Made by a program: the position numbers and the translations under genes
The notes under the pieces: generated by a model
The model's input: only the letters and a program-made list of their open reading frames with translations
Database searches by the model: none
Told to the model about the DNA's origin: nothing
Shown here: in pieces, positions 38,069-45,712 of the stretch
Position numbering within the stretch: position 1 is the first letter of the stretch
Layout of the letters: the number at the start of each line of letters is the position of its first letter
NCBI GenBank assembly: GCA_031266805.1
Contig: JAISAH010000020.1
Location: 1 to 45,712, forward strand
Origin: Gracilibacteraceae bacterium
GTDB lineage: Bacteria; Bacillota; Desulfitobacteriia; Desulfitobacteriales; Syntrophobotulaceae
Direction: 5' to 3'
DNA: 45,712 nucleotides

Positions 38069-39316
38069 ATGGGTATTATTAAAGCGGCAATCGGTTCCGT
38101 GGGCGGAGTTCTGGCTGATCAGTGGAAGGATTTCTTCAGCTGCGACGCTTTGAGCGCCGACGTGCTGGCGGCGAAGGGGCAAAAACGCGTCTCGAGGCGT
38201 TCTTCCAACACTCGGGGCGAGGACAATATCATCACCGCCGGCTCCGGTATCGCCGTCGCGGACGGGCAGTGCATGATCATAGTCGATCAGGGCAAAGTGG
38301 CCGACGTCTGCGCCGAACCGGGAGAATACATTTATGACGCCTCGTCAGAACCGGCTCTTTTCTGCGGTGATTTGCGGGCGGGGATTGACGCTTCCCTGAA
38401 AAACATCAAGGCCCGTTTCGCTATGGGCGGCAGTCCGGGTAAGGACCAGCGCGTTTATTATTTCAACATGAAGGAAATCATCGGCAATAAATACGGCACG
38501 CCGAATCCTCTGCCTTTTCGCGTGGTGGACGCGAACATCGGCCTGGACATAGATATCGCTATCCGGCTGCATGGGGAATATTCTTACAAACTCGTCGATC
38601 CGATCCTTTTTTACACCAACGTCTGCGGCAACGTGGAACACACCTATCATCGCGGTCAGCTGGACAGCATGCTGAAAACGGAATTGCTCACCGCGCTCCA
38701 GCCGGCTTTCGCCAAGGTTTCCGAATTGGGGATCCGTTACAGCGCGCTGCCGGGGCATACGGCGGAATTCGCTCAGGCGCTGAACGAGGTCCTCTCGCCC
38801 AAATGGACGCAGCTGCGCGGGATCGCCATCGCTTCCATCGGCGTCAACTCGGTTTCGGCTTCCGAAGAAGACGAGAACATGATCAAACAACTGCAAAAGA
38901 GCGCGGTGATGCGCGACCCGGGTATGGCGGCCGCGGCGCTGGTCGGGGCGCAGGCGGACGCGATGCGGGCGGCGGCGGCCAATAAACAGGGAGCGATGAC
39001 CGGTTTTATGGGGCTCGGCCTGGCACAGCAGGCCGGCGGCGCGAACGCGGGGGAGATGTTCGCTCTCCAGCAAAAGCAGCAGCAGCGGCAACAACAGCAG
39101 CAACAACAGCAGCAATCCCGTCAGGCGGCCGGGCCGGGGACCGCGGAAGCCCGGAGTTGGACATGCGCCTGTGGTGTGTCAAATAGTGGTAATTTTTGCG
39201 CCGATTGCGGCAAGCCCCGGCCGGCGGCGAATGTCCGCTGCGACAAATGCGGCTGGACGCCGGAACCCGGCGGTAAGCCCCCGAAATTTTGCCCTGAGTG
39301 CGGCGACCCTTTTTAA
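38069..39316 (+). CDS. SPFH-domain protein with C-terminal zinc ribbon (YdjI-like)
   Basis: A 415-residue protein of the SPFH/virion-core-like family. Residues 1 to about 290 hold the SPFH region (WKDFFSCDALSADVLAAKG, SGIAVADGQCMIIVDQGKV, PLPFRV). An alanine-rich helix (MAAAALVGAQADAMRAAAA) leads to a glutamine tract of 16 codons, then a double zinc ribbon: CACGVSNSGNFCADCGKP and CDKCGWTPEPGG...FCPECG. SPFH proteins form membrane-associated cages or microdomains. It sits 18 bp after the regulator gene and 9 bp before a zinc-ribbon membrane protein, an arrangement like ydjI-ydjG of Bacillus. Confidence 0.85.
   Translation: MGIIKAAIGSVGGVLADQWKDFFSCDALSADVLAAKGQKRVSRRSSNTRGEDNIITAGSGIAVADGQCMIIVDQGKVADVCAEPGEYIYDASSEPALFCGDLRAGIDASLKNIKARFAMGGSPGKDQRVYYFNMKEIIGNKYGTPNPLPFRVVDANIGLDIDIAIRLHGEYSYKLVDPILFYTNVCGNVEHTYHRGQLDSMLKTELLTALQPAFAKVSELGIRYSALPGHTAEFAQALNEVLSPKWTQLRGIAIASIGVNSVSASEEDENMIKQLQKSAVMRDPGMAAAALVGAQADAMRAAAANKQGAMTGFMGLGLAQQAGGANAGEMFALQQKQQQRQQQQQQQQQSRQAAGPGTAEARSWTCACGVSNSGNFCADCGKPRPAANVRCDKCGWTPEPGGKPPKFCPECGDPF
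39068..39115 (+). repeat. CAG/CAA trinucleotide tract (polyglutamine)
   Basis: Sixteen consecutive codons, fourteen for Gln with one Lys and one Arg, mixing CAG and CAA. It encodes a flexible link between the SPFH part and the zinc ribbons. Length changes would keep the frame. Confidence 0.95.
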
Positions 39317-42583: not shown

Positions 42584-42769
42584 GATCCGCATCCTCTTTC
42601 TTTTATTTTCACACAGTCCCTTAATTTATCACCCCCTATATTTTTTCAGATTGCACGCCTGTTTGTCAAGAGGGTTGGAAGGATGCAGCGTGAATTTTTT
42701 GTGAATCTTGCGGCAACTCAAATAGATGGATGATAGAAGGTTATTTGCTGGCGGTTCCCAATACACCAA
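42584..42769. other. Intergenic region between the divergent amidase and glnA genes
   Basis: About 190 bases with AT-rich stretches and no supported coding frame. It holds the probable minus-strand -35 TTGACA (42669-42664) and a short direct repeat, GTGAATTTTTTGTGAATC (from about 42691). Nothing else was recognised. Confidence 0.5.
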
Positions 42770-42798
42770 TTGACAAATCGAAGTGTTCAAGAGATAAT
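42770..42798 (+). promoter_or_regulatory. Promoter of the glnA-ANTAR operon
   Basis: Perfect -35 TTGACA (42770-42775), 17-bp spacer, -10 GATAAT (42793-42798). The predicted start, about 42805, lies at the first of two adjacent hairpins. Confidence 0.7.
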
Positions 42799-42805
42799 TT
42801 ATGCT

Positions 42806-42834
42806 AGGAAAAATCCTCTGTTCACGGGGAACAG
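42806..42834 (+). promoter_or_regulatory. Tandem hairpins at the 5' end of the glnA leader
   Basis: AGGA-AAAA-TCCT (42806-42817) is followed without a gap by CTGTTC-ACGGG-GAACAG (42818-42834). Two adjoining hairpins upstream of a gene linked to an ANTAR regulator suggest an ANTAR target, but the loops do not fit the usual hexaloop with A at position 1 and G at position 4. A further GC-rich dyad, CGCGC...GCGCG around GCCGATCGGC, lies at about 42854-42877. No intrinsic terminator with a T-run is visible. Confidence 0.4.
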
Positions 42835-42899
42835 GGGGATGAGAAAGGTCACGCGCGAACTGCCGATCGGCGCGCAGAACCTTGAAGGGGTGGTAAAAA

Positions 42900-44192
42900 A
42901 TGGCATTAGCTTTGCGGGATATTTTTGATTTCGCGCGGGAGCATGACGTAAAATTCATTCGTTTGGCTTTTTGCGACATGTTTGGCGCCTTGAAAAACAT
43001 TTCTGTGATGACGGAGGAACTGCCGCGAGTGATTGAAAACGGCGTATCGTTTGACCCGGCCCTGATTCGCGGATTTTCGCCCGCGCGCGAGGATCTTTAT
43101 CTGCATCCGGATCTGGACACGCTGAGCGTTTTGCCCTGGCGCCCGAGTCAGGGGCGCGTTATTCGCATGTACTGCCATATCAGGCACGCGGACGGGCGCG
43201 GCTTTGCCGGCGACGGGCGCGCTTTGCTGCGGCGCGTGACTGAGGAACTGAAAGAGCGGGGTTGCCTGTGCAAGATCGGCCCGGAATGTGAGTTTTATCT
43301 GTTTGAGCTTGACGGAGACGGGAACCCGACTCGGAAACCGCAGGATCAGGCCGGTTATTTTGACGTCTCCCCGCTGGACCGCGGGGAAAACGTGCGGCGC
43401 GACATCTGCCTTACGCTGGAGGAAATGGGCATCCAGCCGGAAAGCTCTCATCACGAGCAAGGTCCGGGACAAAACGAGATATGTTTCCGCCATGGCGACG
43501 CGCTGACGGCGGCCGACCAGTTCGTGAGTTTTCGCAGCGTAGTCAAAAGCATCGCGGCCCGCAACGGGCTCTATGCCTCCTTTATGCCCAACCCGTTGCC
43601 TGACGCTAACAGCAGCGGTTTGCACGTCAATATTTCTCTTTTCAAAAGCGGCTATAATATTTTCAGCGGCGGCATAACCAGCCAAGAAGGAGAAGCGAGA
43701 AGTTTCGTCGCCGGGATCCTGAACCGCGCGGCGGAAATAACGGCGGCGCTGAACCCGCTGACGAATTCCTACCGGCGTGGAGCCGAGCCGACCCGCGTCG
43801 GCTGGCGGTTGGGGAGCCGTTCTCAGCTTGTGCGCATACCGGCGGCCACGGGCGAGTACGCGCGCATGGAGATCCGTTCTCCCGACCCGGCCTGTAATCC
43901 CTATCTGGCTTTTGCGCTGTTGATCAAGGCCGGACTGGAAGGGCTGGAGCAAAAACTGCCGCTCACAAAGCCGCTGGATTTCGATGAATCGGGCGGCGCG
44001 ACAGTCCCCGCTTTGCCGGCCACATTGGGCGAAGCGCTGGCTCTGGCGGAAAAAAGCCGGTTCTGGCGGGACTGCCTGACGCCGGCGCTGGCGGATGGTT
44101 ACGTCGCGGCCAAAAAAGACGAATGGCAGGCATATCTGGCGGCGGACGACAAAGACCTTTTTGAGCGGGAAACTTATTTTGCGGTCGTCTAG
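42900..44192 (+). CDS. glnA: Type I glutamine synthetase
   Basis: A 430-residue enzyme that makes glutamine from glutamate, ammonia and ATP. Visible are the beta-grasp N-domain (FIRLAFCDMFGALKNI), the metal-binding GPECEFYLF, HHEQGPGQNEICF, the active-site SGLHVNISLF and RMEIRSPDPACNPYLAFA. The usual NRS before the ATP-contacting arginine reads SRS (GSRSQLVRIPA). There is no adenylylation-site insertion, so control is more likely at the RNA or feedback level. AAGGGGTGG precedes the ATG. Confidence 0.93.
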   Translation: MALALRDIFDFAREHDVKFIRLAFCDMFGALKNISVMTEELPRVIENGVSFDPALIRGFSPAREDLYLHPDLDTLSVLPWRPSQGRVIRMYCHIRHADGRGFAGDGRALLRRVTEELKERGCLCKIGPECEFYLFELDGDGNPTRKPQDQAGYFDVSPLDRGENVRRDICLTLEEMGIQPESSHHEQGPGQNEICFRHGDALTAADQFVSFRSVVKSIAARNGLYASFMPNPLPDANSSGLHVNISLFKSGYNIFSGGITSQEGEARSFVAGILNRAAEITAALNPLTNSYRRGAEPTRVGWRLGSRSQLVRIPAATGEYARMEIRSPDPACNPYLAFALLIKAGLEGLEQKLPLTKPLDFDESGGATVPALPATLGEALALAEKSRFWRDCLTPALADGYVAAKKDEWQAYLAADDKDLFERETYFAVV

Positions 44193-44255
44193 TAGGAACG
44201 GTACGCTTTATTTATTGCCAGTTCCTGACGGTCGCGGCGCGCGAAAAGAGAGGTG

Positions 44256-44834
44256 ATGGCTGCGGTGGACTACGCGCTCGTGGTGAGCGGCTCAGAAAAA
44301 TCGCGGGATTTTTTTCTGCAGGTGCTGAAAGAAACGGTTTACACCCAGATCACATTTGTCCGCTCCGGCAATGAGGCTCGCCGGTTGCTGCGCGCCAACG
44401 ACTACGACCTCGTCGTCATCAATACGCCGCTTACGGATGAATTCGGCCACGACTTGGCTTTTGCCGCGCTGGAAAACACCTCTGCCGGCATAATCCTGAT
44501 CGTAAAAAACGAGATCGCCGACGAGGTGGAAGCCCGCGTCGCGGATCATGGGGTTTTTGTTTTGGCTAAGCCGCTGAACCGGCAAATATTTCACCAGTCC
44601 CTGAAGCTGATGGCCGCCTCCCGCCGGCGCATCGTCGGCCTGAAACTGCAAAACTCGAAGCTGCAAAACAAGATCGAGGAGCTGCGGCTCGTCGACCGGG
44701 CCAAATGCGCGTTGATCCAGTATTTGAACATGACGGAGGCGCAGGCGCACCGCTATATAGAAAAACAGGCGATGGATCTGCGGACGGCAAAACGCGAGAT
44801 CGCCCAAAATATACTGCGCAACTACGAGGCGTAA
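44256..44834 (+). CDS. ANTAR-domain antitermination regulator with degenerate receiver
   Basis: A 192-residue protein. The first 120 residues resemble a receiver domain, but the phosphoacceptor position reads VVINTPL rather than VVxDxxMP, so the aspartate is replaced by asparagine; the later lysine is kept (LAKPLN). A coiled coil (LKLQNSKLQNKIEELRL) leads into the ANTAR domain: DRAKCALIQYLNMTEAQAHRYIEKQAMDLRTAKREIAQNIL. ANTAR proteins bind paired RNA hairpins to block termination. Its place 60 bp after glnA suggests that it controls glnA or other nitrogen genes. A GTG at 44253 and a GTG at 44265 are alternative starts. Confidence 0.88.
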   Translation: MAAVDYALVVSGSEKSRDFFLQVLKETVYTQITFVRSGNEARRLLRANDYDLVVINTPLTDEFGHDLAFAALENTSAGIILIVKNEIADEVEARVADHGVFVLAKPLNRQIFHQSLKLMAASRRRIVGLKLQNSKLQNKIEELRLVDRAKCALIQYLNMTEAQAHRYIEKQAMDLRTAKREIAQNILRNYEA

Positions 44835-44984: not shown

Positions 44985-45176
44985 ATGTCCAGAGTTTGCG
45001 CCATTTGCGGCAAGGGAGTCACCGCCGGGATGAATGTCAGCCATTCACATATCCGCACTAAACGCGTCTGGAGACCAAATCTGCAGCGGGTGCGCGCGGT
45101 CGTCAACGGCGCGCCCGTACACATCAGAGTCTGCACCAGATGCTTGCGCTCCGGTCATATCCAGCGCGCGGTCTAA
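44985..45176 (+). CDS. rpmB: 50S ribosomal protein L28
   Basis: A 63-residue L28. It shows the N-terminal zinc-type pair CAICGKG, VSHSHIRTKRVWRPNLQRVR and the second pair VCTRCLRSGHIQRAV. AAAGGA lies upstream of the ATG. It is a single gene with its own promoter and a terminator downstream. Confidence 0.97.
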   Translation: MSRVCAICGKGVTAGMNVSHSHIRTKRVWRPNLQRVRAVVNGAPVHIRVCTRCLRSGHIQRAV

Positions 45177-45283: not shown

Positions 45284-45712
45284 TCAATTTTTATTTTGAA
45301 TGTACTCGTCGATGGACCGCGCCGCCGTCTTGCCCGCGCCCATAGCCAAAATGACCGTGGCCGCGCCTGTCACCGCGTCGCCGCCCGCGTATACCCCCTG
45401 CCGCGTGGTCAGCATGGCGTCCTCGTCCGCCAGCACCAGACAACCGTGCCGGTTCACTTCCAGTCCTTCCGTCGTCCGGCTGATCAAAGGATTGGGGGAG
45501 TTGCCGATGGCCATGACCACACATTCGGTCTCGATATCAAACTCGCTGCCCTCGACGGGGATTGGCCGCGCCCGCCCGGAGGCGTCCGGCTCGCCCAGCT
45601 TCATCTCCTGACAGCGCAGACTCTTGACCCAGCCGCTCTCGCCCGGGTCGATGCGCAGCGGGTTGGTCAGCAGTTTGAAAACAATCCCTTCTTCCTTGGC
45701 GTGATGGATCTC
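45284..45712 (-). CDS. gltA: Glutamate synthase small subunit-type FAD/NAD(P) oxidoreductase, C-terminal fragment
   Basis: The last 142 residues of a gene running off the right edge; the frame is open to base 45712. It begins EIHHAKEEGIVFKLLTNP, then has CVVMAIGNSPNPLI, the second nucleotide-binding end GVYAGGDAVTGAATVILAMG and AARSIDEYI. These match the C-terminal domain of the GltD-like small subunit (NADPH-dependent, often named GltA in Bacillota and archaea). It passes electrons from NAD(P)H for glutamate formation, or serves other redox roles as a homologue. Nearness to glnA fits nitrogen assimilation. Confidence 0.9.
   Translation of the reverse strand, partial: EIHHAKEEGIVFKLLTNPLRIDPGESGWVKSLRCQEMKLGEPDASGRARPIPVEGSEFDIETECVVMAIGNSPNPLISRTTEGLEVNRHGCLVLADEDAMLTTRQGVYAGGDAVTGAATVILAMGAGKTAARSIDEYIQNKN

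Follow-up and report, generated by a model that had tools for sequence, protein, structure and literature searches.

A putative NitR-type ANTAR regulator encoded beside glnA in a Gracilibacteraceae bacterium, and a hexaloop at glutamate synthase as its probable target

The stretch of Gracilibacteraceae DNA analysed here (45,712 nucleotides, termed 'the window') encodes a glutamine synthetase and, just downstream, a regulator with an ANTAR domain. We think it probable that this regulator is a NitR-type pseudo-receiver ANTAR antiterminator, and that its target is the standard A1/G4 hexaloop ahead of the glutamate synthase gene gltA and not the leader of glnA. This explanation is supported directly by the linkage of the regulator gene to glnA, by the loss of the phosphorylation pocket, by the retention of RNA contact residues, by a covarying hexaloop that overlaps a terminator, and by the co-occurrence of element and regulator among related genomes.

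The features of the locus are collected in Table 1. The glnA product matched the Pfam domains Gln-synt_C (1.3e-90) and Gln-synt_N (9.6e-18), and its match to TIGR00653 (3.7e-103, 345.7 bits) lies under the cut-off of 429. The regulator gene, in which a GTG at 44253 stands ahead of the ATG, is located 63 nt 3' of glnA and encodes a product of ∼193 residues. Its ANTAR domain (residues 136–188; PF03861, 4.3e-15) scored 55.7 bits, above the curated cut-off of 27.3, and is the sole ANTAR match in the 3.38 Mb assembly; the N-terminus is receiver-like, at 27.6 bits and thus under the Pfam cut-off of 30.2. The closest named relative comes from a Gracilibacteraceae MAG (L011, 81% identity), and two Clostridium loci (L062 and L063) share 50–52% identity with the window regulator.

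Table 1. Features of the glnA leader, of glnA and of the regulator gene (positions in the window)
Feature	Position	Strand	Basis
−35 box TTGACA, predicted glnA promoter	42770..42775	+	read directly; spacing 17 to GATAAT
−10 box GATAAT, predicted glnA promoter	42793..42798	+	read directly; putative RNA start near 42805
Hairpin 1, 9 bp, pentaloop ACGGG, no ANTAR hexaloop, lineage-specific	42815..42837	+	folding, shuffles; missing in congeners
Hairpin 2, weak fold	42845..42883	+	72/200 shuffles fold equally well
Ribosome-binding region, sole leader part common to congener glnA	42885..42899	+	89–94% identity over 42885–42920 in 2/4 congeners
glnA, type I glutamine synthetase, 430 aa	42900..44192	+	Pfam PF00120/PF03951
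Putative NitR-type ANTAR antiterminator gene: pseudo-receiver, coiled coil, ANTAR domain	44256..44834	+	PF03861; fold closest to Rv1626 and EutV
Asn57 codon, phospho-acceptor position	44421..44423	+	N in 75, S in 4, D in 4, F in 1 of 84 loci; end of strand 53–57 in model
ANTAR domain, EutV RNA-contact positions kept (R145, R149, K151, E162, H166, M174)	44658..44816	+	

Past the regulator lie a small gene that by eye resembles that of ribosomal protein L28 (rpmB; 44985–45176, +) and an open reading frame truncated at the window end (45284–45712, −), which by eye resembles an NADPH-dependent glutamate synthase small subunit or an NfnB-like oxidoreductase and would be another nitrogen-related gene close to the regulator. 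A predicted protein at 38069–39316 (+) displays a glutamine run and a zinc-ribbon-like end, and its neighbour is also zinc-ribbon-like.

The glnA leader contains one hairpin that stands out from chance. Hairpin 1 folds at −13.8 kcal/mol, a value reached by none of 200 shuffles; a stem of this length arose in 2 of 500 shuffles when only the 97-nt leader was shuffled, versus 40 of 500 for the whole 307-nt intergenic region. The leader as an entire unit (42803–42900) was matched in folding by 26 of 200 shuffles, and hairpin 2 is at chance level, so that the side-by-side pair described in an earlier note on this DNA is reduced to one real hairpin and a weak fold. That note was correct in stating that the leader loops differ from the known ANTAR target: in the 147 nt upstream of glnA the best loop is the pentaloop, with no A1/G4 hexaloop hairpin (stem of at least 3) and consequently none of the paired hexaloops that define a dual-hexaloop target. 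A covariance model of the hexaloop (described below) found no match in the leader, no Rfam family matched the window, and the 90 nt after hairpin 1 contain no T-rich octamer.

A search with positions 42593–42920 against five genomes of the genus matched, outside the genome of origin, only 42885–42920 in two congeners (G016 and G018); a third (G017) returned just an unrelated-looking 24-nt piece (42602–42625) and the fourth (G019) nothing. By eye, a coding gene apparently ends a little upstream of glnA in G016, G018 and G019, and the similarity is confined to the ribosome-binding region. The leader is therefore missing from all four congeners and does not represent a conserved target. We give about even odds to hairpin 1 having one of two roles, that of a common stabiliser of the mRNA 5' end or that of the palindromic DNA operator (CTGTTC-N5-GAACAG) of an unrelated repressor. 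Its position as a perfect inverted repeat directly 3' of a good promoter would suit either role, and the palindrome pattern occurs at 12 places in this genome versus 6 in the reversed control (with up to 1 mismatch); against an operator, the sole other exact copy in the genome (contig C117) lies inside long open frames, and no convincing regulon was found for the palindrome in the genome. Such a role concerns the glnA leader only and is compatible with a regulator that acts at gltA, in which case the leader hairpin would be an unrelated, lineage-specific feature.

The regulator was modelled with 38 relatives in the alignment (mean pLDDT 92.7). The model comprises a receiver fold, a single long helix (residues 110–158) and an ANTAR bundle, and its top Foldseek matches were Rv1626, EutV and AmiR, with TM values of 0.80 against the RNA-bound EutV chain (188 columns, 19% identity) and 0.64 against AmiR. 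Asn57 is positioned at the end of strand beta-3, where EutV has Asp. Alignment with EutV by eye indicated that further receiver residues are gone, the acid pair being replaced by S12/G13 and the T/S switch by V84, with K106 retained. Across 84 loci (80 from the relatives search plus L092–L095, with L011 and L091 representing one place), position 106 carries K (72 loci) or R (12), and position 57 is N in 75, which indicates that the loss of the phospho-acceptor is old and general and no oddity of this protein. The regulator thus does not have the Asp and acid pair of a two-component response regulator, and corresponds instead to an AmiR-like pseudo-receiver protein (a receiver fold without the Asp, followed by a coiled coil and an ANTAR domain). 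AmiR is described as a case of a non-phosphorylated pseudo-receiver (PMC3369936, PMC8934654).

The RNA-binding surface, by comparison, is largely preserved. In a mapping made by eye, with residue numbers shifted by 2, the EutV contacts K143, K147, K149, E160, Y164 and M172 correspond to R145, R149, K151, E162, H166 and M174 of the regulator, and two others are changed (R142 to L144, and R168 to E170). R149 and K151 are kept in all 84 loci, and E162, H166 and M174 each in 83; the H166 position is occupied by Tyr in EutV and by His in AmiR. The retention of most EutV contacts speaks against altered RNA recognition by the regulator.

Linkage of the regulator to glnA is widespread. Of 81 testable loci (3 further ones of the 84 could not be scored), 77 have glnA upstream of the regulator, in the same orientation and no more than 400 nt away, and four (L054, L078, L083 and L087) have no glnA adjoining the regulator. 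The window has the common arrangement, in which the ANTAR gene belongs to the glnA cluster, as expected of the NitR type. Directly upstream of glnA, 24 of 73 testable relatives have gltA3, an arrangement suggestive of a single operon for glutamate synthase, glnA and the regulator; the glutamate synthase operon of the window's genome lies apart from glnA and the regulator. NitR of Clostridium saccharobutylicum, studied by Stutz et al. 2007 and known to us through a review (PMC6316151), is named there as an ANTAR protein whose antitermination activity induces GS/GOGAT genes. Judged by position and domain content, and not by comparison with NitR itself, the window regulator looks like a NitR-type protein. 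The earlier note's gene calls (glnA, then a regulator with a full ANTAR domain) hold on their Pfam matches, its observation of a receiver without the phospho-acceptor Asp is borne out and extends to most of the phosphorylation pocket, and its assignment of the regulator to nitrogen control is supported.

The constant linkage makes glutamine synthetase itself an attractive sensor, by analogy with AmiC–AmiR and with Bacillus GS–TnrA as described in the literature: the feedback-inhibited enzyme might hold the pseudo-receiver, the phosphorylation pocket of which has been lost. We regard this as possible, at somewhat better than one chance in three, since the proposal relies on a linkage that plain co-expression would fit too, and since in the four loci named above glnA is not beside the regulator.

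A scan of relatives' glnA leaders for A1/G4 hexaloop hairpins led to the element GAAC[AAAGGC]GTTC (loop in brackets). A covariance model was built from 13 copies and used in further searches, from which 27 elements were kept; their loops are AAAGGC (21), AATGGC (3), AAGGGC (2) and AACGGC (1). Among 19 distinct rows, three of the four stem pairs change on both sides and 98.7% of cells are paired. The covariation score (0.427) exceeds the shuffled mean of 0.221, was reached by none of 500 shuffles, and is far above every slid version of the alignment; the model was built partly from the rows tested, so that the presence of the stem itself was selected for. An overlapping terminator, with a stem running from the loop to a T-rich tail, was equalled in no more than 5 of 100 shuffles for 24 of the 27 elements, the exceptions being L133 (9), L047 (6) and L062 (54). 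Downstream lie glnA, gltA (the GATase subunit), glnN, asnB, purA and gdhA, identified through NCBIfam or Pfam where a scan was made and from their initial residues in the other cases. The purA site, in G002 (L179 1501–1518, −), precedes adenylosuccinate synthase, an unexpected gene for a nitrogen regulon.

Model matches apparently within coding sequence (L131, L132, L134, L135 and others) were dropped. Also left out were L212 (apparently coding), L218 (at gdhA, with no terminator seen), L219 (a duplicate of L095) and two L035 sites (near-copies of L034). Rfam searches of 12 element loci returned no family for the element leader and only a c-di-GMP riboswitch, a c-di-GMP-I-GGC example located just 3' of the ANTAR gene of Sedimentibacter saalensis (L034 6759–6834, +).

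The genome of the window contains a single convincing element, GGAC[AAAGGC]GTCC (G000:C20:16253–16270), on another contig than glnA. It is followed by gltA1–gltA2, an oxidoreductase gene and gltA3 (GXGXG), a split glutamate synthase operon. A pattern combining promoter and hexaloop matched the genome once, upstream of gltA, and its reversed control not at all. The overlap of this hexaloop (P2) with a terminator was reached by none of 100 shuffles, with a tail poor in T, and no upstream hexaloop (P1) was present within 45 nt, the predicted start being the first base of the stem. By itself the element scores only E 0.04 in the model search. Allowing two mismatches to the pattern GAACAAAGGCGTTC gave 39 genome matches versus 30 in the reversed control, which makes it useless alone; pattern matches at three places in L120 and one in L125 fell in long open frames and were rejected. 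Another, hexaloop-like hairpin, GAAC[AAGGGC]GTTT (L124, G000:C96:5732–5749, −), is found ahead of a gene that resembles, by eye, that of a DNA-binding regulator; it scores weakly and is probably due to chance.

We found gltA in four genomes of the genus. Of these, G016 and G018 have the regulator and a similar gltA promoter and no recognisable hexaloop hairpin at gltA, and G017 (88% complete) has the element and no ANTAR gene that we could find. The first two genomes raise the question of whether the regulator has left the standard hexaloop in this genus, such that the gltA element is a remnant or a chance hairpin and the real target lies elsewhere. We consider this unlikely, at perhaps one chance in four: the hexaloop is exact, its stem change relative to GAAC/GTTC is compensated, a TATAAT box adjoins it (six bases before the stem), the terminator overlap exceeds chance, and the same site is present ahead of gltA1 in G017.

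We then consider how element and regulator are distributed among 62 members of the class (at least 90% complete; hexaloop at E ≤0.005, regulator relative at E ≤1e-25). A strong hexaloop match was found in 13 genomes, a regulator relative in 21 and both in 11, such that the regulator accompanies 11 of 13 genomes with the hexaloop versus 10 of 49 without (Fisher p 3.6e-5, uncorrected for relatedness); the window's genome itself falls among those without a match at E 0.005. In 9 of the 11 genomes element and regulator share one contig and one strand, and are ∼1.6–1.7 or 6.5–6.9 kb apart. The other two of the 13 have no regulator, and in one of them the match is apparently inside a gene. In one genus (g11) no ANTAR gene was found, yet two genomes carry hexaloop-terminator elements (L163 1501–1518, with gdhA downstream, and L164 1501–1518); this may reflect an incomplete genome, a missed gene, or recognition of this RNA by a different protein.

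The earlier note's own proposal, that the regulator controls its own operon through the glnA leader hairpins as a variant ANTAR target, now appears very improbable: hairpin 1 is strong, lies ∼10 nt from the predicted start and bears A and G at loop positions 1 and 4, and the standard hexaloop is present in some glnA leaders of other Clostridia, but that loop has five bases where the ANTAR targets described in the published work have six, the leader is missing in congeners and has neither a hexaloop-model match nor a T-rich tail, the second hairpin is at chance level, the ANTAR contact residues are mostly the usual ones, and a standard A1/G4 hexaloop exists at glutamate synthase.

The published ANTAR target is a pair of hexaloops, both of which are described as needed in vivo for EutV (PMC3369931, PMC8934654, PMC8164766). 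A second A1/G4 hexaloop hairpin within 45 nt upstream was found for 5 of the 27 elements and was absent in 22. The five compare with a shuffled mean of 1.3, a number as high being reached in 1.5% of 1000 shuffles, and the excess comes partly from related sites of genus g15/g13, which have upstream an AT-only stem with an A1/G4 loop, perhaps transcribed (the stem is full in 3 of 7). For 18 of the 27 we found a −10-like box; in 11 of those the RNA ahead of the stem, measured from predicted rather than mapped starts, is shorter than 14 nt, and therefore too short for another hexaloop hairpin (the box is doubtful for L215, one of the 11, and for L208). L047 is a clear pair. A tandem-hexaloop scan of seven ANTAR loci of other types, intended as a positive control, gave one doubtful pair only, so that L047 is the only positive control of the second-hexaloop scan.

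The glutamate synthase leader and its relatives most likely represent a single-hexaloop variant of the ANTAR target. For a broader proposition we put the odds just short of even: NitR-type nitrogen regulons of Clostridia would use one hexaloop, located at the extreme 5' end of the transcript and unaccompanied by a recruitment hairpin, together with a pseudo-receiver switched without phosphorylation at the usual site.

For the mechanism that we consider most likely, RNA binding, the direction of control, the dimeric state and the signal are what we infer. When nitrogen is short, the regulator, probably acting as a dimer via its long helix, would bind the hexaloop hairpin and thereby keep its loop and 3' arm from pairing downstream into the terminator, so that RNA polymerase would read into the glutamate synthase operon. 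In relatives, glnA, glnN, asnB, purA and gdhA would likewise be raised under nitrogen shortage.

As described in the published accounts, the ANTAR model rests on EutV, which requires both hexaloops in vivo and is driven to dimerise by phosphorylation. A widespread Clostridia regulon with one hexaloop and a protein that is not phosphorylatable at the usual site would prove both features dispensable. If true, single-hexaloop antitermination would break the published two-hexaloop rule and bear on the question, left open in PMC8934654, of how far single hexaloops are used. Our literature search returned no description of single-hexaloop attenuators in Clostridia; Stutz et al. 2007, outside its results, may hold part of one. 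Such a system would serve as a simple test case for a minimal antiterminator, and such a regulon would add a layer of nitrogen control after initiation in many uncultured Clostridia.

Of the known systems, NitR of C. saccharobutylicum is described as a Clostridia ANTAR regulator that acts by antitermination, under nitrogen limitation, on the genes for glutamine synthetase and glutamate synthase (PMC6316151), as proposed here; compared by description only, it differs from the present case in that the window's genome has glnA and glutamate synthase apart and the element only at the latter. EutV of Enterococcus faecalis shares with the regulator its fold, its coiled coil, most ANTAR contacts, and an A1/G4 hexaloop that overlaps a terminator (PMC3369931, PMC8934654). 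Unlike the regulator and its candidate targets, which have Asn at the phospho-acceptor position and mostly one hexaloop, EutV is described as having the Asp and a kinase and as needing two hexaloops. AmiR of Pseudomonas aeruginosa (1qo0) also combines a pseudo-receiver, a coiled coil and an ANTAR domain, and has His at the position that stacks on G4. It differs in being held by an amide sensor, AmiC; no such partner gene is seen here, and glnA occupies that place.
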